This document shows, piece after piece, positions 693 to 13,626 of a stretch of DNA of 64,000 nucleotides; within the stretch, counting starts at the first letter, position 1; the number at the start of each line of letters is the position of its first letter. Origin of the DNA: Chitinophagaceae bacterium (GTDB lineage Bacteria; Bacteroidota; Bacteroidia; Chitinophagales; Chitinophagaceae). Under the pieces are notes generated by a model. It did no database searches. It was not told the origin of the DNA and saw nothing but the letters and a program-made list of their open reading frames with translations. The position numbers were made by a program, and so were the translations under genes. The DNA is taken from assembly GCA_019752045.1 (NCBI GenBank), contig JAIEMP010000005.1, positions 124,001 through 188,000 on the forward strand, read 5' to 3'.

Positions 693-3600
693 ATGACAAA
701 GGGTAATTTGATATATGAGGGGCCTGAATTTCTGATCTACAAAGAAACACTTGATGACTTTCCTGTACCGGTCGTTATTAAACAAATAAAAAGTAAAGAC
801 GCTTCTACGGAGTTATTGTTACAGTTAAAAAACGAGTTTGAGCAAACGCATGAACTCACGTTGAGTGGTGTAAGAAAAGCTATCCGGCTTCAACAGATGA
901 ACGGTGCGCCATCCCTTTTGCTTGAGTATGTAGATGGAATTACTTTAAAGGAAGCTTTTTTATTAAGAGACCGGAGCCTGGCCGAATTTTTAAAAGTAGC
1001 GATTCAGATAGCACGTTATACCGGAGAAATTCATCAGCACCAGATCATACATAAAGATTTAAACAGCAAGAATATTCTTGTAAGTAACGATCTGAGTAAA
1101 ATAACGCTTATAGATTTTGGCATTTCAACAAAATTCAATCTCAAGTCCGATTACTCCATTAACCCGGAACGTTTAGAAGGATCACTTGCCTACATGTCGC
1201 CCGAACAAACAGGCCGTATGAACAGGGCAATTGACTCAAGAAGCGATTTGTATTCACTGGGAATTATTTTTTATGAATTGGCAACCGGCCGCCTCCCGTT
1301 TGAAGCATCTGATCCGATAGAATATATTCATTGTCATATTGCCCGCAAGCCCATACCACCGGCACAGATTGATGCCGGCATTCCGGAAGTGTTGTCGAAT
1401 CTCATTATGAAACTGCTGGAGAAAAATGCAGAAAACAGATACCAGTCGGGCTTTGGTATTAAGCATGATCTTGAAATAATTCTGAAACAGCTGGAAACAA
1501 CCGGCAAAGCAGAAATGTTTCAACTGGCACAAAATGATTTTACCGGCAGGTTTATCATTTCACAAAAATTATATGGGAGAGAAAAGGAGTTTGAATTTTT
1601 ACTGGAAACTTTTCGCAAATCAGTAAAAGGAGAATTGCAAACGGCCATTGTGTGCGGTTATTCCGGTGTAGGAAAATCTTCAATCATACATGAAATGCAC
1701 CGGCCTGTAACAGAAGCACAGGGCTATTTTCTCGAAGGCAAATTCGGTCAGTATCAGCGCAACATACCCTATCAGGCATTTATACAGGCCTTTACTTCTT
1801 TTGTAAAACACTTTTTAACAAAAGATAATTATCAGCTCATTGAATGGAAACATAATCTGAAACAAACGTTGGGTGAAAATTTATCACTGTTACTTTCGCT
1901 CATCCCCGATCTTGGGTTGTTACTTGGTGAAGAACAGCCACAGCAAACCAGCCACTCATTTGAATCGCAAAGCCGGTTTAATTACAGCATCATTCAGTTT
2001 ATAAAAGTGATTGCAGCAAAAGAAAACCCTGTTGTTCTTTTTCTGGATGATATGCAATGGTCTGATCTGGCTTCGCTTGATTTACTGAAAGAAATATTAA
2101 CCGACAGCTCCATCAAATATGTAACTATTGTACTTGCTTACAGAGACAATGAAGTTACATCCGAACATCCGCTGAGTGTTACACTTAATGAAGTAAAAGA
2201 ATACAATTCGCATATCAGGCAAATAAGACTGAAGGGATTAACTGTACCCGATGTATCAATGCTGTTAAGTGATACATTAAATGAACCGGTGCAAAAGATT
2301 CAGCGCCTTGCAGATGTTGTATTTAAAAAAACGGATGGTAATCCGTTTTTTATGAATGAGTTTTTGAAGTCGTTGAATGCAAAAGACCTGATCTGGTGGG
2401 ATGCAGTTTCAAGTAAATGGCTGTGGCACGAGGAGCAAATAGAAGAAATGAGTGTAACAGAAAATGTGATTCACTTTCTAACTCAAAAAGTTCGCAGGTT
2501 CCCGGCAAATACCTTGAAAATTCTGCAGTATGCTTCCTGCATAGGAATGAAATTTTCGGTGCCTACGCTAGCGGGGGTAATGCATTTAAGCGGAGAAGAG
2601 ATTGTGAGCATACTTTTTCAGGCAATTAAAGAAGGGTATATTATTCCTTCTTCTATAGTTAAAAAAGATGCAGCAGAAGATAAGGAACAGGTACTCCTTT
2701 TCAGTGAAGCAAAATTTGCACATGACCGTTTTCTGCAGGCTGTTTATTCCATGTTGAGCGAAGAAGAGCGCAACCGCATTCATTATGCTATTGGGCAATG
2801 GATGCTGAATACAAACGAAAAAGAGGCTGATGTATTTGAACTGGTGAATCACCTCAATGAAGGCAGAACATTTATTTCAACGGCACAGGAAAAAAAACAA
2901 TTGTGTGAGTTAAATTTTGATGCTGGTAAAAAAGCCAAGAAAGCAAGTGCATATGAATCGGCTTTACACTATTATCAGAAAGCAGCTTCGTTACTGCCTA
3001 CAGATGCATGGGAGAATAATTTTGAATTTGCTTTTCAATTATCCTTGTCCCGTGCAGAAGCAGAGTATCTCAATCTTCATGCAAATGAAGCCGATCAGTT
3101 GTTTGATGGTTTGCTGGTGAAGGCCCGCAACAAAATGGAAAAAGGGTTGGTATACGAACGGAAATTATCGCTGGCAGTTGCTTTGGGAAAATATACAGAA
3201 GCGCTTGAATTGGCGCACACTGCATTAAACCTGTTTAACATCAGACTGCCTAAAACAAAAGCAGGGAAAATTTTATCCATCTTAAAGAATGTGCTATTAA
3301 TGAAATGGCGGTTCAGAAATATTGAAGCCGCTGATTTACTGAACTTGCCCGAAATTAAAAATGAAAAAGAACAGCTTGTTACAAGGATATTCAGTCTTGC
3401 TATTTCTCCCGTTTATTTCTCTAACGACTTTGAAGCATACTTCGCCACTTTTCTTTCATTGGTGAATTATACAATCAAGAGAGGCAACTCCATAGCATCA
3501 CCACACATCTTTGTTACCTATGCAATTATTGAGAATGTTTTTTTTCAGCATTATCAACGAGCTTTTGCAATAGGTAAAGTTTGTCTTGAACTGAACCAGC

Positions 3601-5843
3601 GTAATTTTTCACCGCAGGTTCGTGGGCAGTTAACATCCAATCTGGCCGGTGGTATTTATCATTGGGTAATGCCTTTGCGTGAAACCTTTCATGAATTTTA
3701 TACAGGGTATAAATATTCATTAGAAGCAGGTGATTATAATTATCTCGCCATAAACATCAATCAGCATATTGCTACACAAATCAGATCCGGCAGAAACCTG
3801 AAACTGATTCTCGACGAGTTTGGCGGATACCGTACCTGGGTTGAAAAACCAAATGATCCGAAAATGGTTTGGGAGTTTAATCTCTATACGTTTTGTATGC
3901 GAGAGCTCATGGGAAAAACTGAACAGGCAGAAGCGGATGTTTTTGAAGAAGCTTTTGTAAAAGAAAATCAACCCATAAAATTTAACCTTGGATATTTTTA
4001 TACTGCAAGAAGCAAGTACTATCTGTTTATGAATGAACCTGCAAAGGCGCTGAAGATGGCTGAGGAAGCTATATCCGTACTTCGGTTTTTGCAGGCAACT
4101 CCAAGCCATGCCGATGCTGTTTTTTATTACTGTATGGCAGGTATTTCAAACTTCACTTCCTTTTCGCCCATTAAAAAACGATTGTTCAAACGTAAGTTGA
4201 ATAATCATTTGAAGCAGTTTGAACGATGGGAAAAATTATGTCCGCAGAATTTTTCTGCTCAACGTCTGTTGATCTGTGCAGGCATTGCAAAAATCAATGC
4301 AGATATAGCAGCAGCGATTGATTTTTGTCAGAAAGCGGTACAATCTGCAAGAGACAATCAGTTTACACAATTAGAAGCGTATGGAAATGAACTGCTGGGA
4401 GCAATCTGTTTAGATAATAATCTGAAGAACGATGCAGATCAGTATCTGCAAAAAGCAATTGTATTATATGCAAGATGGGGCGCAACAGGTAAAGTAGCAC
4501 AGCTAAAAAAACAAAATCCTGCGTTGAAAGATATCGAAGTAAAAGATACGGTATCCATGACCTTTAGCGGTGAAATAACCATTCAGGACTCAGTGAACAT
4601 CAACAGCCAGAATATAGATCTGGCTTCGATCATGAAAGCATCTACAGCTATTGCAGGAGAAGTAAAGTTTGATCAACTGTTGAATAAAATGATGAAGATT
4701 TTGGTTGAAAACGCCGGTGCTCAGGAAGGGTATGTGTTGCTTGAAAAAGACGATCAGATATTATATAAACCGCCTCAAAATCAAAATGGCAATGAAGTAA
4801 AACTCATCATTGGTATCCCGGATGAAGAAAATGAACTCTTGCCGGTTTCTGTTGTGCAATATGTGTACAGAACAAAAGAAGAGGTGGTGCTGGAGGAAGC
4901 CTATAATGATGTACGGTTTGCTAAAGATGCATACATGCAGAAAAAGAAACCTCTTTCAGTATTATGTATGCCAATCCTGCACCAGGGAAATTTTACAGGA
5001 ATACTTTATCTGGAAAACAATGTAGCTGTTGGTGTATTTAATCAGCAACGTTTAAATCTTCTGCGGTTGCTGTCCGGGCAAATAGCTGTTTCAATAAACA
5101 ACTCACTGCTGTATGAAAACTTGGAACAAAAAGTAATTGACAGAACTGAACAGGTGGTACAGCAAAAAAATGTAATTGAACAGGAAAAACTTGTTTCAGA
5201 AAAACTGCTGCTTAATATTCTGCCGGCTGAAACAGCGTTTGAATTAAAACAAACAGGTAAGGCACAACCCAAGCGCTACGAACATGTAACTGTGATGTTT
5301 ACCGACTTTGTTGAGTTTACTAAAATAAGCAACATCACTCCTGCCGATGAACTGGTGAATGATATTGATTATTACTTCCGTGAGTTTGATGAAATCATCA
5401 GCAAATACAAGATTGAAAAAATAAAAACCATCGGCGACAGTTATATGTGTGTGTCCGGTTTGCCTGTCATCAATCAATCACATGCAGTTGATATGATTGA
5501 TGCAGCCTTACAGATTATTGCATTTATCAATCGTACAAAAGCTGAACGGATACAACAGCAAAAATCGTATTTCGATATCCGCATCGGTATTAATACAGGA
5601 CCTGTAGTTGCAGGAGTGGTAGGGTCAAAGAAATTTGCTTATGATATCTGGGGTGATACTGTAAATATTGCAGCACGTTTGCAGCAAACATCTGAGCCCG
5701 GCCGAATTAATATTTCTCCTTCTACTTATGAACAGGCGAAGGAAAAATTCAGGTTTACGGCACGTGGAAAAATCAGCATAAAAAATAAAGGGGAACTGGA
5801 TATGTATTTTGCAGATTCTTTGAATGCAACAGAGACTGCCTGA
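693..5843 (+). CDS. serine/threonine kinase - AAA ATPase - TPR - GAF - adenylyl cyclase fusion
   Basis: This is a 1716-residue cytoplasmic signalling protein. Residues ~10-265 are a Hanks-type kinase with HKDLNSKNIL (~120), DFG (~141) and a YMSPEQ activation segment. Residues ~290-620 are a predicted AAA/MalT-like ATPase with P-loop GYSGVGKSS (~322) and Walker B LFLDDMQW (~450). A long helical TPR-like region runs to ~1290, a GAF domain spans ~1315-1480, and a short coiled coil follows. The C-terminus is a class III cyclase with metal Asp residues in FTDFVEFT (~1535) and IGDSYM (~1580). Substrate-selecting Lys (KIKTIGD) and Asp (YDIWGDTVN, ~1650) predict ATP rather than GTP; the transition-state Asn and Arg are present in VNIAARL. 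The kinase HRD motif reads HKD, which is common in this multidomain class. No membrane segment is visible, so the input is probably a small molecule or partner protein. Confidence 0.88.
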   Translation: MTKGNLIYEGPEFLIYKETLDDFPVPVVIKQIKSKDASTELLLQLKNEFEQTHELTLSGVRKAIRLQQMNGAPSLLLEYVDGITLKEAFLLRDRSLAEFLKVAIQIARYTGEIHQHQIIHKDLNSKNILVSNDLSKITLIDFGISTKFNLKSDYSINPERLEGSLAYMSPEQTGRMNRAIDSRSDLYSLGIIFYELATGRLPFEASDPIEYIHCHIARKPIPPAQIDAGIPEVLSNLIMKLLEKNAENRYQSGFGIKHDLEIILKQLETTGKAEMFQLAQNDFTGRFIISQKLYGREKEFEFLLETFRKSVKGELQTAIVCGYSGVGKSSIIHEMHRPVTEAQGYFLEGKFGQYQRNIPYQAFIQAFTSFVKHFLTKDNYQLIEWKHNLKQTLGENLSLLLSLIPDLGLLLGEEQPQQTSHSFESQSRFNYSIIQFIKVIAAKENPVVLFLDDMQWSDLASLDLLKEILTDSSIKYVTIVLAYRDNEVTSEHPLSVTLNEVKEYNSHIRQIRLKGLTVPDVSMLLSDTLNEPVQKIQRLADVVFKKTDGNPFFMNEFLKSLNAKDLIWWDAVSSKWLWHEEQIEEMSVTENVIHFLTQKVRRFPANTLKILQYASCIGMKFSVPTLAGVMHLSGEEIVSILFQAIKEGYIIPSSIVKKDAAEDKEQVLLFSEAKFAHDRFLQAVYSMLSEEERNRIHYAIGQWMLNTNEKEADVFELVNHLNEGRTFISTAQEKKQLCELNFDAGKKAKKASAYESALHYYQKAASLLPTDAWENNFEFAFQLSLSRAEAEYLNLHANEADQLFDGLLVKARNKMEKGLVYERKLSLAVALGKYTEALELAHTALNLFNIRLPKTKAGKILSILKNVLLMKWRFRNIEAADLLNLPEIKNEKEQLVTRIFSLAISPVYFSNDFEAYFATFLSLVNYTIKRGNSIASPHIFVTYAIIENVFFQHYQRAFAIGKVCLELNQRNFSPQVRGQLTSNLAGGIYHWVMPLRETFHEFYTGYKYSLEAGDYNYLAININQHIATQIRSGRNLKLILDEFGGYRTWVEKPNDPKMVWEFNLYTFCMRELMGKTEQAEADVFEEAFVKENQPIKFNLGYFYTARSKYYLFMNEPAKALKMAEEAISVLRFLQATPSHADAVFYYCMAGISNFTSFSPIKKRLFKRKLNNHLKQFERWEKLCPQNFSAQRLLICAGIAKINADIAAAIDFCQKAVQSARDNQFTQLEAYGNELLGAICLDNNLKNDADQYLQKAIVLYARWGATGKVAQLKKQNPALKDIEVKDTVSMTFSGEITIQDSVNINSQNIDLASIMKASTAIAGEVKFDQLLNKMMKILVENAGAQEGYVLLEKDDQILYKPPQNQNGNEVKLIIGIPDEENELLPVSVVQYVYRTKEEVVLEEAYNDVRFAKDAYMQKKKPLSVLCMPILHQGNFTGILYLENNVAVGVFNQQRLNLLRLLSGQIAVSINNSLLYENLEQKVIDRTEQVVQQKNVIEQEKLVSEKLLLNILPAETAFELKQTGKAQPKRYEHVTVMFTDFVEFTKISNITPADELVNDIDYYFREFDEIISKYKIEKIKTIGDSYMCVSGLPVINQSHAVDMIDAALQIIAFINRTKAERIQQQKSYFDIRIGINTGPVVAGVVGSKKFAYDIWGDTVNIAARLQQTSEPGRINISPSTYEQAKEKFRFTARGKISIKNKGELDMYFADSLNATETA

Positions 5844-5876
5844 AAAAAAGGGGCCCTTTGTAAAAAACAAAAGGCC
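5843..5876 (-). terminator. rho-independent terminator for the minus-strand tRNA-like RNAs
   Basis: On the minus strand a 10-bp stem (GGCCTTTTGT with ACAAAGGGCC, one G-T pair) and a 5-base loop are followed by CC and seven T residues. It lies 22 bases past the 3' end of the nearer tRNA-like RNA and overlaps the stop codon of the plus-strand cyclase gene. The T tract exists only in the minus direction, which supports transcription of the RNA pair on that strand. Confidence 0.75.
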
Positions 5877-5898
5877 AGTAGAAAAGCATGAGAAAAGC

Positions 5899-6069
5899 TG
5901 TAGGGGGAGGGATCGAACCTCCACGGAGCAGTTAGTTGCAGCACAAAGTTCGGTGGTCGACCCCGGTCGAGTGGTTATTGCTAACCAAACGGCTCTATGC
6001 TGTATTTATCCTGTTATCTCCACCCCCGAGACGAGAGGGCATGTCTGCCTAAAATTTCATCACCCCACA
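5899..6069 (-). ncRNA. tRNA-like RNA with giant variable arm, copy 1
   Basis: This 171-nt RNA reads on the minus strand as a tRNA body with a 100-nt insertion. In order it has a 7-bp acceptor (TGTGGGG with CCCTACA), TG linker, leucine-tRNA-like D arm (ATG/CAT stem with AAATTTTAGGCAGA loop) and a 5-bp anticodon-like stem (CCCTC/GGGGG) with loop TCGTCTC. The insert is closed by GGAG/CTCC and holds a 10-bp helix (CAGCATAGAG with CTTTGTGCTG), a GCAA tetraloop hairpin (GGTTA/TAACC) and a CGACC/GGTCG hairpin. It is followed by a canonical T arm GGAGG-TTCGATC-CCTCC. CCA is not encoded. The anticodon loop has C instead of U at position 33 and nominal anticodon GUC, so normal decoding is doubtful. It could belong to a described Bacteroidota ncRNA family that I cannot check. 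Confidence 0.7.
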
Positions 6070-6165
6070 GTGTAAAAGAATAAAACACAAAATCCATTGT
6101 CCAAAATCCAATAGCCAAAAACATTTCTTGTATTTTGGTATTTGTGATTTGGTTTTTATTTGAGC

Positions 6166-6335
6166 TGTAGAGGGAGGGATCGAACCTCCACGGAGCAGTT
6201 AGTTGCAGCACAAAGTTCGGTGGTCGACCCCGGTCGAATGGTTATTGCTAACCAAACGGCTCTATGCTGTATTTATCCTGTTATCTCCACCCCCGAGACG
6301 AGAGGGCATGTCTGCCAAGATTTCATCACTCCACA
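6166..6335 (-). ncRNA. tRNA-like RNA with giant variable arm, copy 2
   Basis: This tandem 170-nt copy lies upstream of copy 1 in the direction of transcription, with a 96-base spacer. It is nearly identical to copy 1. Acceptor base pair 6 changes from G-C to A-T (TGTGGAG with CTCTACA), a compensatory change that supports the stem. The other differences are in the D loop (CTTGG for TTTTAGG) and one C-to-T change in an unpaired spacer of the insert. The T arm, anticodon-like loop and all insert helices are unchanged. No terminator separates it from copy 1, so both are probably processed from one transcript. Confidence 0.7.
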
Positions 6336-6363
6336 GTATGTTGTTCAAAGAACGATTACAGTG

Positions 6364-6396
6364 CAATATTAGGCTAATAGACATATTCGTTGCAAA
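6364..6396 (-). promoter_or_regulatory. candidate Bacteroidota promoter for the tRNA-like RNA pair
   Basis: On the minus strand TTTG (6393-6396) and TAATATTG (6364-6371) are separated by 21 bases. The Bacteroidota consensus is TTTG and TAnnTTTG, so the -7 element has one mismatch. The predicted start falls about 20 bases before RNA copy 2. This is a motif match only. The surrounding 6336-6480 stretch is AT-rich and otherwise empty up to the divergent Lrp gene. Confidence 0.4.
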
Positions 6397-6480
6397 TTTT
6401 CAAACAAATATTTTAAAACTTTCGATTTAATTTAAAAAATATTACTTAATATTGAAAAATAACTAAAAACCGTTTAGTAA

Positions 6481-6957
6481 ATGGCTGTAAAATTAAATCT
6501 TGACAAACTGGATCTTCAGATTATTTCAGAAATGATGGAAGATGCACAGATTTCTTATGCCGATCTTGGTAAAAAACTCTTTGTATCGGGCGGTACCATT
6601 CATGTACGCATAAAAAAATTGCAGGAACATGGAATTGTGATTGGCACCAGACTAAATGTTGATTTAAAAACATTGGGATACGACATTACTGCTTTTGTAG
6701 GGATTTATTTAGAAAAAAGTTCGCTGTATGATACAGTTGCAAAAGATTTGCGGAAGATCCCGGAAATTGTGCGTTTAAATTATACAACCGGAAACTACAG
6801 TATGTTTATAGAAGTGGTTTGTAAAGATATCAACCAGCTCCGGTATGTATTACATGATGCGCTGCAGAAAATTAAAGGAATTGAACGTACAGAAACGTTT
6901 ATTTCATTAGATGAAAGCTTTAACCGCAATGTACAGGTTGTACAAAACCCTGCTTAA
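6481..6957 (+). CDS. Lrp/AsnC family transcriptional regulator
   Basis: This is a 158-residue protein of normal Lrp/AsnC length. An N-terminal winged helix-turn-helix spans about residues 8-55; its recognition helix lies in VSGGTIHVRIKKLQEHG. A C-terminal RAM (amino-acid-binding) domain follows, in which TGNYSMFIEV is typical. Such proteins form octamers or dimers and respond to small effectors, usually amino acids. The gene stands alone, divergent from the tRNA-like RNAs. Its effector and targets cannot be read from the sequence. Confidence 0.88.
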   Translation: MAVKLNLDKLDLQIISEMMEDAQISYADLGKKLFVSGGTIHVRIKKLQEHGIVIGTRLNVDLKTLGYDITAFVGIYLEKSSLYDTVAKDLRKIPEIVRLNYTTGNYSMFIEVVCKDINQLRYVLHDALQKIKGIERTETFISLDESFNRNVQVVQNPA

Positions 6958-10555: not shown

Positions 10556-13500
10556 ATGACCTTGACGAAATTTGCAAGAGGTGTTCTCGCTGTGTTTTGT
10601 TTATTGCTGGTGACCAATGTTGCACTGGCACAAACAAGAACCATTACAGGAAAGGTAACTGACTCAAAAGGAGATGCAGTTCCTTCTGCAACTGTAGCAG
10701 TGAAGGGCTCCAAAAATTCAACCACTACAGCAGCTGACGGATCGTTCAGACTGTCTGTACCAACCGGAGCATCTACTCTGGTGATTTCATCTGTTGGTTT
10801 TACAACAATGGAAGTAAGTATTTCTGGAAAAGATGATGTATCCGTATCACTCGAAACAAACAATGCTGCATTGAATGAAGTGGTGGTAATTGGTTATGGT
10901 ACCCGTAAAGTAAAAGACTTAACAGGTTCTGTTGCTAACATTACACCCAAAGATTTTAACAAAGGCCAGATCAGTACTCCTGATCAATTATTACAAGGCC
11001 GAACTCCAGGTGTGTTGATCACTCCTTCAAGCGGTCAGCCCGGTGCTGCTGCTACCATCAACATCCGTGGTACTGCATCTATTCGTGGTAACCAGGAGCC
11101 GCTGTATGTAATTGATGGTGTTCCTATCTCAAACGGCGGTACAGTTGGTAGTGCAAGTGGTGTGGAAGGTAGTTCTACCCCATTGAACCCGTTGATGTTT
11201 ATCAATCCCAACGACATTGAAAGCATGGTTGTTTTAAAAGACGCATCGGCTGCAGCTATTTATGGTGCAAGAGGTGCAAATGGTGTTATCCTTATTACTA
11301 CCAAATCAGGTAAGGGTGGTAAAAAAGGACAGTTTACATTTGGTGCCAATACAAGTATTGCAACTACTGCTAAAAGATATGATCTGTTAGGACCAAGTGA
11401 ATTTTTGGCTGCAGCAAGACAGGCAAATATTGATGGCGGTTCCGATCCTGCTGCTGCTGCCATTGCTGTGCAGGCTTTGGATGGCGGAGCAAATACAGAT
11501 TGGCAGGATGAAATTTTCAGAACTGCATTTTCTCAAAACTTCAACCTTGGTTATGGTTTCAACACCAAAACAACCAATGTTCGGTTAAGTGGTTCTTACG
11601 ATAACCAGGAAGGTATTGTGCGTAACAGCAGCTTAAAGCGTGCAACGATCCGTGCAAATGCTTCTCAGAAATTTTTGAATGATAAGTTGAAATTTGATTT
11701 AGCAACCACTTTCTCAAACTCCCGTAATGAATATCCGCCGTTAAGTAACAACGCCGGTTTTCAGGGAAGTTTGTTAGGTGCTGCCCTTCAATTTAACCCA
11801 ACATACCCGGTTAAAAATGCCAATGGGTCATTCTTCCAGCCGGGAGATCAGCGTAATCCTTCACAGATGCTTGCTTATTTTGAGGATAAGGATAACATCA
11901 ACCGTTTCCTTACCAGTTTAACAGGCACTTACCAGATTACAAAAGGTTTATCTTATAAAGTGGTATTTGGATACGACATGTTAAATACGAACGTACTTCA
12001 TTTTCAGATCCACGTTTAGGAGCAAATGCTTATGGTGGAACTGTTTTTTATTCAGTGCCTAACGGACCTTCAGAAAATCTGAACAACCCCATTTTTGGAA
12101 ATGGCAGAACAACCCGCCAGAACAATGAGTTACGTTCAACTTTATTAGAGCAATATGTTACTTGGGACAGAGACTTCGAAAAGCATTCATTTAATATTGT
12201 AGGTGGTTATTCTTATCAAAGTTTCCAAAATGAGTATAGACAAAAAGTTGGCTGGGGCTTAAACACACCTGTTGTAAATCCCGGTGATGTATTTATTAAG
12301 AACTTCGATAATTTTAAAAACTACAGAGACCTGTTTCCAGGCTTTGATAAAAATGAATTACAGTCATTTTTCGGTCGTGTAAACTATAGTTATGATAATA
12401 AATACTTTCTTACGGCAACAGTAAGGGTGGATGGTTCATCTAGATTCGGTGCCAATAACAGATATGGTACATTCCCTGCCTTTGCTGCAAAATGGAAACT
12501 CAGCAATGAAAAATTTGCTGAAAGAAGCATTGCCAAATGGTTCAATGAGTTCAGCTTAAGAGCTAACTACGGTATCATTGGTAGCCAGGATGGCCTTGCA
12601 TCTTATGGTGCCGTTCGTTTAGGATTTGCATATCCTGCGTTTGGAACAAATCCTGCAGGTAACGCTTTTCAACAAGACGAGAACAAAGATCTTAAATGGG
12701 AGCAGGCAGCTACTACCGGATTTGGTCTTGATTTCACGACCAGAAACAGCCGCTTATCAGGTACCATTGATTATTTCTATACAGAGCGTAAAAACCTTTT
12801 GGTTCTTGATTATGTACCAGGCGGATTTTCTGCGACAGCACGCTTATTTGCAAACCTGCCCGGCATTGTGGTTAACAAAGGTTGGGAGTTTAGTTTAAGT
12901 TATAAAATCCTTCAGGGAAGGAAATTCAACTGGGAAGTAAGTGGTAACCTTACAAAGATTTCAAATGAATACAGAGACTTACCCAACCCAATCATTACAG
13001 GTGCTGTAAGCGGACAAGGTTTAACAGGTGCGTATGCACAAACTTTTGTTGCCGGCCAGCCATTATTTACATGGTCTATGCCGGTATTCCAGGGCTTTGA
13101 CGGTAACGGTAATGCCCGTTATGAGAAAGGTGCTGCCAATCAATTATCAGGAACTGCACTTCCTAACATGTTTGCTGGTTTAACCAATAACTTTAGTATG
13201 GGCAACTGGAACCTGAGTGTATTTCTCAATGCAGTTACAGGATTTAAAGTGTATGACAATACCTCTAATGCTTTGTTCTTAAAAGGTAGTTTGAGAAATG
13301 GACGTAACGTTACCACTTCGGTAGCAAACAGTAATGAAAATCCATTTAACCCCGGAAGTGTTTCTACAAGATTCCTGCATAATGGAGATTTTATTCGTCT
13401 TGCGAACGTTAACTTAAGCTATACGTTTAATCTGGAGAGTAAAGTCATTCGTTCACTTTCAGTGTTTGCATCTGGCCAAAACCTTGCGTTATTTACCAAG

Positions 13501-13626
13501 TATCCCGGTTTAGATCCTGAAGTAAACGTTGATAAACAAATTGCCGGTGTTCCTTCACGTGGTTTTGATTACACACAATATCCAAGACCAAGAGTAGTTA
13601 CAGTTGGAGTGAACCTTGCATTTTAA
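10556..13626 (+). pseudogene. SusC/RagA TonB-linked outer-membrane receptor, broken by a -1 frameshift
   Basis: Read across the frameshift this encodes about 1023 residues, the normal SusC length. A signal peptide (cleavage near ALA-Q, residue ~25) is followed by a carboxypeptidase-regulatory-like domain (~28-112), an EVVVIGYGT region, the plug (YVIDGVPIS; DASAAAIYGARGANGVILITT) and a beta barrel. The first frame stops at 12019. The barrel continues in the next frame from about 11992 (RTSFSDPRLGANAYGG), so one base, probably a C in AAC-CGT, is missing near 11990-11993. The downstream frame shows no further damage. The gap could be a sequencing error, a recent mutation or a phase-variable site, although no long homopolymer is present. 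SusC imports oligosaccharides together with the SusD encoded next. Confidence 0.85.

Follow-up and report, generated by a model that had tools for sequence, protein, structure and literature searches.

The window, a 64,000-nucleotide stretch of a Chitinophagaceae genome (contig JAIEMP010000005.1, positions 124,001 to 188,000), contains two tandem minus-strand RNA genes (5897-6070 and 6164-6336) that combine a tRNA scaffold with a giant structured variable arm. The genes belong to a real, conserved, covarying and widely distributed family of tRNA-scaffold RNA genes of Bacteroidota. The family appears to be an uncatalogued bacterial class, and we regard it as new as an RNA class; its nearest kinds are allo-tRNAs, tmRNA and tRNA mimics, and it does not fit the structural definition of either of the first two. 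A widespread full-scaffold tRNA-like RNA gene with a regulator partner was apparently missed in much of a phylum. As to its role, we tentatively favor, at somewhat less than an even chance, a non-decoding RNA that undergoes tRNA-type processing, probably accepts aspartate and is controlled by an AsnC-type regulator. If the RNA is indeed aminoacylated yet non-decoding, tRNA chemistry would have found a novel use beyond the genetic code, and the question of why some bacteria with AsnRS and GlnRS retain GatCAB could be put to the test. Among the options offered in the original prediction, which was made from the letters of the window, the best fit is a new class of tRNA mimic, and that reading is supported in part; the AsnC-like partner, the Asp-type identity elements, U1-A72, the viral copies and the shrinking insert go beyond it.

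Results

The two RNA genes and their parts

The two copies are 97% identical, with a start-to-start spacing of 267 nt and MFE z-scores of -2.55 and -2.90, and they are the sole matches in a blastn search of their own genome. The acceptor stem, the Leu-like D arm and the T arm that had been predicted for both are present, and the fold is supported in an alignment of 63 sequences (see below). The features are the following:

5897-6070, minus strand: tRNA-like RNA copy 1, from base -1 to C74
6164-6336, minus strand: tRNA-like RNA copy 2, the copy closest to the asnC-like gene
6041-6060, minus strand: copy 1 D arm, AUG/CAU stem, G18G19 kept, tRNA-Leu-like
6023-6039, minus strand: copy 1 anticodon arm, 5-bp stem and 7-nt loop UCGUCUC with C38; G34, U35 and C36 are 6032-6030
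5925-6021, minus strand: copy 1 giant variable arm, with GGAG/CUCC, bulged CAG/CUG, a conserved internal loop, a 10-bp helix and two hairpins
5906-5922, minus strand: copy 1 T arm, GGAGG UUCGAUC CCUCC
5897-5905, minus strand: copy 1 acceptor 3' strand CCCUACA, discriminator G73 (5898) and C74 (5897)
6364-6396, minus strand: promoter-like pair TTTG ... TAATATTG, upstream of copy 2 (from sequence and enrichment in relatives)
6347-6353, minus strand: boxA-like GTTCTTT, between copy 2 and the promoter (from sequence and enrichment in relatives)
5852-5876, minus strand: intrinsic-terminator-like hairpin and T run, downstream of copy 1
6481-6957, plus strand: AsnC-like (Lrp/AsnC family) regulator, the divergent partner

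The Bacteroidota promoter pattern, of which we take the promoter-like pair to be an instance, occurs in 70 of 202 sequences upstream of the RNA, compared to a mean of 1 after block shuffling. The motif GYTCTT (GTTCTTT in the window), presumably a boxA, is found in 84 of the 202, compared to a shuffled mean of 6.7. A promoter scan with an E. coli-type consensus found nothing. The gene for a 1716-aa protein (693-5843), whose domains are of the kinase, AAA_16, GAF and guanylate-cyclase types, converges on the RNA genes. At 10556-13626 of the window, an apparent receptor, which we take by its look to be SusC-like, is split into two ORFs with a break near 12019-12055.

Comparison to catalogued RNAs

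An already described Bacteroidota ncRNA family such as Flavo-1 had been considered. No Rfam match was obtained in the whole window at gathering thresholds, and nothing meaningful was found among the weaker matches in 5850-6400; therefore, the RNA is not Flavo-1 as modelled in Rfam. ARAGORN made no call in the window or in 24 cellular loci. Searches of the openly accessible literature found no prior description of the family: the motif table of PMC2864571 includes Bacteroidetes motifs, but the term tRNA-like is absent from that paper, and PMC8632094 likewise lacks terms for such an RNA. A prior description could exist elsewhere. Two candidate identities were rejected: (i) tmRNA, as a genome search with RF00023 gives a separate tmRNA and lists neither copy, and the anticodon arm is kept in 206 of 206 members; (ii) a bacterial Y RNA with a Ro partner, as the own genome has no Ro60/Rsr (TROVE) protein.

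Distribution and covariation

Using blastn with copy 1 (E 0.01 or better), we found matches in 269 of 394 same-family genomes. Members for alignment came from 31 automatically chosen loci and 40 loci chosen by place; 95 nhmmer hits yielded 78 distinct members after removal of duplicates and of hits with fewer than 100 model positions, and 63 of the 78 were aligned, both window copies included. The rows of this first set (A1) were cut at TGTGG and ACAGC, which are present in all 78 members. The consensus structure derives mainly from RNAalifold, to whose output the D stem and two pairs were added. In the 63-sequence alignment, 98.5% of the 2973 cells are paired, and double-sided changes occur in 18 of the 48 pairs; double-change cells number 247, whereas slid controls give 14-46 and shuffling gives a mean of 68. 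The supported helices are the acceptor stem, the D arm, the T arm, GGAG/CTCC and the 10-bp helix, so that the closing stem and the long helix of the predicted insert are both borne out. The D stem is invariant in this alignment, and it varies with pairing kept in the wider set. In that wider, pattern-scan set, the alignment of which was fitted to the covariance model R1 and leans towards the structure, 34 of the 48 pairs have double changes among the matches listed.

Of 395 phylum genomes, 40 contain members that score above 75 bits with R1. A further 120 phylum genomes produced only matches under 60 bits (mostly ~85 nt among the matches listed), which were set aside as ordinary type II tRNAs; the one that was read (L125) is a tRNA-Leu-like sequence. 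A pattern scan of named genomes found at least 80 loci, in which R1 gives 102 members; U35, C36, Y37 and C38 are fixed by the scan pattern in this set. Among the matches listed, the hosts are Chitinophaga, Pedobacter, Mucilaginibacter, Hymenobacter, Spirosoma, Dyadobacter, Cyclobacterium, Algoriphagus, Pontibacter, Saprospiraceae and others. Homologues with covarying stems, whose absence would have refuted the prediction, exist in hundreds of genomes.

Two collections are used below: 206 members that mix sets A1, A2 and A3 (one of 207 was left out as a misfit to the D-arm search), and 112 members (A1+A2) in which the loop was unfixed by the search, although recruitment by blastn and the model still favors look-alikes. 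Sequence L125 and two partial matches in locus L090 were left out of the counts. Positions 976-1361 of L090 contain two truncated tandem variable-arm and T-arm halves followed by other sequence, and look like T-loop integration remnants.

Anatomy and ends

Cellular members are about 110 to 212 nt long. In other lineages, the variable arm shrinks down to a short hairpin on an internal loop of GAYAAAC/GCUAA type; this pattern, loosely defined, fits 107 of the 112 members (A1+A2) and 93 of 100 pattern-scan members among the matches listed. Despite the shrinkage of the insert, U1-A72, G2-C71, G73, C74, U35, C36 and C38 are fixed or nearly so. The nested structure proposed for the insert is present, although the proposal overlooked a bulged 3-bp CAG/CTG helix above the closing stem as well as the conserved GAYAAAC/GCUAA internal loop. 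The predicted GCAA hairpin exists but is lineage-variable across the family, and in place of the CGACC/GGTCG hairpin, covariation supports the pairing RGG/CC with R121-Y133 (AU 38, GC 20, GU 4).

The canonical 5-bp anticodon stem has 4 or 5 of its 5 pairs in all 206 members, with true swaps, for example to CCCGC/GCGGG (3) and CCGTC/GACGG (5), and a U-U mismatch in 28 members. The MFE stem CUCUCG/CGGGGG was rejected: it retains only 2-3 of 6 pairs in 8 of the 206 members, whereas the canonical stem always retains at least 4 of 5. This alternative also forms 5-6 pairs in 192 of the 206, and thus most members do not separate the two stems.

In the tRNA genes of the own genome, C74 follows the discriminator in 30 of 30 examined (of 35 matches), and the full CCA is encoded in 2 of the 30 (L140, L152). 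Because host tRNA genes have C74, the CAGC end is read as C71 A72 G73 C74, with a 7-bp acceptor (U1-A72 to G7-C66) and U8 in place; the -1 base is weakly paired, and the T stem has 5 bp. An 8-bp acceptor with C73 was dropped given the C74 of host tRNA genes. The acceptor stem is complete as predicted, and its ends are redefined accordingly (7 bp, U8, G73, C74). The suggested use of tRNA-processing or CCA-adding enzymes is consistent with this 3' end, which is that of host tRNA genes. The D loop carries extra small hairpin-like inserts in L021, L040, L044, L045 and viral L305, L329 and L360, and L040 has an extra small insert in the variable arm as well. The loop region has an apparent resemblance to the 3' end of 16S rRNA.

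The AsnC-like partner gene

The product of the divergent gene is an Lrp/AsnC protein. Its nearest NCBIfam model is AsnC (159.7 bits, below the cut-off of 227 for that model), and among solved structures the match to AsnC (PDB 2cg4, E 3e-32) compares to 2.5e-11 for Lrp (2gqq). Of 93 pieces examined, 76 have an AsnC-like gene upstream of the RNA and encoded on the other strand; a few pieces are the same place twice, and 2 of the 17 misses are contig ends. Among the matches listed, such a gene occupies that place in 48 of 80 named loci, and the 32 loci without such a gene nearby include Saprospiraceae, Cyclobacterium, Algoriphagus and Pontibacter. Every AsnC-like neighbor found has the identical orientation, with gaps of about 120-360 nt. 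Across 388 genomes of the own family (kinship ignored), 262 have the RNA and the AsnC-like gene, 4 the RNA only, 15 the gene only and 107 neither; the two genome draws behind this sample differed by six genomes, which are taken here as outside the search for the gene; if they were within it, the RNA-only class becomes 7. Genus g29 contributes eight pieces with the AsnC-like gene and no R1 match beside it (L281-L288; one piece extends only ~295 nt upstream). From the conserved gene order, we infer that transcription of the RNA may be set by the divergent AsnC-like regulator.

Identity elements

The following positions are invariant in all 112 members (A1+A2): U1-A72, G2-C71, U3-A70, G73, C74, U35, C36 and C38. 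In the same set, G34 is found in 109 members, U33 in 76 and a purine at position 37 in 3. Decoding tRNAs carry U33 and purine 37, and both window copies have C33 and U37. The loss of U33 that had been noted thus holds for the window pair but not for the family as a whole. With a pyrimidine at position 37 in nearly every member and no U33 in one third of them, the RNA is unlikely to take part in ordinary decoding.

PMC9976931 lists G73, G34, U35, C36 and C38 as the strong aspartate determinants and states that bacterial tRNA-Asp keeps G1-C72 and G2-C71. All five determinants are present in 109 of the 112 members and in both window copies. In the pattern-scan set, among the matches listed, G34 is found in 87 of 100, U1-A72 in 99 and U3-A70 in 98; a base other than G at position 34 (3 of 112 in A1+A2 and 13 of 100 among the matches listed) is mainly a feature of Hymenobacter and Pontibacter. 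The near fixation of U3-A70 indicates that the constraint is not confined to identity positions. The identity set (G73, G34, U35, C36, C38, G2-C71) suggests that the RNA is probably charged with aspartate by AspRS. Two features count against this reading: the large variable arm is foreign to AspRS substrates, and G1-C72 is missing, with U1-A72 in its place in 112 of 112 members.

As described in PMC9976931, U1-A72 confers amidation of Asp-tRNA-Asn, whereas G1-C72 and U20a block it. The family has the corresponding features of GatCAB substrates, i.e., U1-A72 is present, and G1-C72 and U20a (0 of 112) are absent. In the own genome, tRNA-Asp has the loop CUGUCAC and G73 (L134), and tRNA-Asn has U1-A72 and G73 (L132).

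Occurrence of GatCAB

The own genome has gatB, asnS and glnS; it also has two AsnB-type (asparagine-synthetase) genes above cut-off, which counts against an Asp/Asn reading. Among the 395 phylum genomes, gatB is present in 40 of the 40 that carry the RNA (kinship ignored). For genomes of the same class or nearer, 37 have both, none has the RNA only, 4 have gatB only and 25 have neither (kinship ignored); a further 38 genomes lack gatB, one of which (G719) belongs to another class, and the remainder are given with no kinship. In other classes, gatB is present in 291 genomes, of which only 3 carry the RNA, and this argues against a general link. PMC4206432 reports genera with AsnRS, GlnRS and GatCAB, most of them with asparagine synthetase, in which the use of GatCAB is uncertain; it also reports GatCAB, perhaps vestigial, in deltaproteobacteria that have asparagine synthetase as well.

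Viral members

The same pattern was found in 69 viral stretches, 67 of which have a full-length R1 match above 60 bits. Among 55 distinct viral members, U1-A72, G2-C71, G73 and G34 are present in 55 and U3-A70 in 49. Another tRNA or tmRNA gene is located in the same piece for 56 of the 67; for the 48 long forms, these numbers are 44 of 48 for another tRNA gene and 8 of 48 for tmRNA. The commonest neighbor is tRNA-Ser (27 of 49 within 100 nt of viral long forms), a neighborhood that speaks for serine no less than for aspartate; these neighbor counts are not independent because the contigs include near relatives. ARAGORN assigns every one of the 19 viral forms of ordinary length (92-97 nt) to tRNA-Asp(gtc). 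In viral L305, L318, L322, L329 and L360, ARAGORN found 23-26 tRNA/tmRNA genes, for most or all amino acids. With tblastn at 1e-3, the regulator has no match in the 69 viral pieces. Searches of phage and plasmid records with the window copy gave no match, and plasmid carriage was rejected on the latter result; for three viral members compared to phage records, two match one unannotated record each, and the third has none.

Discussion

A possible course of events

Transcription would start at the RNA gene's own promoter, and the C74 end suggests that the transcript is cut to tRNA ends and receives CCA in the way of host tRNAs. The product would retain the body of a class II (Leu-like) tRNA, from which a large and structured variable arm extends. 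It would probably be charged with aspartate by AspRS, and pyrimidine 37 together with the frequent loss of U33 would exclude it from ordinary decoding. If transcription is set by the AsnC-like regulator, then the RNA may serve the aspartate/asparagine balance as an aminoacylated reporter or carrier. The conserved GAYAAAC/GCUAA loop is a likely site for a protein partner. In the most speculative step, GatCAB would turn Asp-RNA into Asn-RNA, as U1-A72 and the lack of U20a would allow.

We consider it rather improbable that the whole of this chain holds, i.e., that the RNA is a non-coding aminoacyl carrier which AspRS loads with Asp and GatCAB amidates, so that asparagine is signaled or supplied in RNA-borne form and the AsnC-like regulator is in control. 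If true, this would explain why these Bacteroidota keep GatCAB despite AsnRS and GlnRS, and viruses rich in tRNAs would have copied the RNA as a means of managing the pool in their host.

Alternative explanations

The RNA could be an uncharged scaffold, either a regulatory or ribosome-associated tRNA mimic or a decoy for tRNA-binding proteins or anticodon nucleases, with the loop or the arm binding a partner. The anticodon loop and the GAYAAAC/GCUAA loop are both unpaired and strongly conserved, and the viral long forms keep company with tRNA and tmRNA genes; yet it is hard to see why an RNA that is never charged would preserve an entire acceptor end in which U1-A72, G2-C71, G73 and C74 are fixed, and we see this explanation as somewhat unlikely. 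Charging with serine is also unlikely in our estimate. Here the RNA would be a class II tRNA-like molecule akin to allo-tRNAs, recognized by SerRS through the long arm and G73, with GUC being no identity element. The class II body, G73 and the frequent tRNA-Ser neighbors of viral long forms are consistent with such a role, although the dependence among viral contigs limits the neighbor counts. As stated in PMC9976931, A73G switches Leu to Ser identity, but most bacterial tRNA-Ser have G1-C72, and the RNA has U1-A72. PMC7609411 names GUC among the predominant anticodons of 8/4 allo-tRNAs, yet also among those found once. Fixed U35, C36 and C38 and nearly fixed G34 are left unexplained by seryl acceptance.

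Less probable still, and in our view very unlikely, is a decoding role as an odd extra tRNA-Asp isoacceptor, in which case the RNA would count as a tRNA variant rather than a new class. The tRNA-Asp(gtc) calls for the 19 short viral members and the U33 of 76 of the 112 members point in that direction; however, U33 is lost in 36 of 112, purine 37 occurs in only 3, and a standard tRNA-Asp is also present in the host and in 13 of 48 viral long-form pieces. We give next to no credence to a mobile-element attachment site or a decaying tRNA duplicate. The truncated tandem remnants in L090 resemble T-loop integrations, but strong covariation, the promoter signals, the conserved partner gene and the lack of matches to the window copy in plasmid or phage records are at odds with attachment or decay.

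Comparison with known systems

The probably aspartate-accepting, non-decoding RNA that we tentatively favor shares some properties with several known RNAs. Allo-tRNAs (Mukai 2017), as described in PMC7609411, are likewise class II, with an anticodon unfit for the body, GUC among their anticodons and serine features of the G73 type; they differ in their acceptor branches, which are 8/4 or 9/3, and in their sources, namely Clostridia, Proteobacteria and Acidobacteria. The RNA described here has a 7/5 branch, reaches up to 212 nt, is spread over Bacteroidota and in most cases accompanies an AsnC-like gene; its T stem of 5 bp and acceptor of 7 bp with an optional -1:73 pair do not form the 12-bp acceptor domain (8/4 or 9/3) of allo-tRNAs. 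With tRNA-Asp, it shares the GUC anticodon, C38, G73 and G2-C71, and it differs in the class II body, the giant variable arm, U1-A72 and pyrimidine 37. The GatCAB substrates tRNA-Asn and tRNA-Gln are similar in U1-A72 and the lack of U20a, and the own tRNA-Asn also has G73; in contrast, the RNA has a different anticodon and arm and a loop unsuited to decoding. Like tmRNA, which it adjoins in two viral pieces, the RNA is tRNA-like; unlike tmRNA, which the own genome has separately, it retains an anticodon arm, and the original prediction noted the lack of a tag frame. Bacterial Y RNAs (YrlA) are an example of tRNA mimicry in a non-decoding RNA, from which the present family is distinguished by its intact acceptor stem, in a genome with no Ro/TROVE protein.
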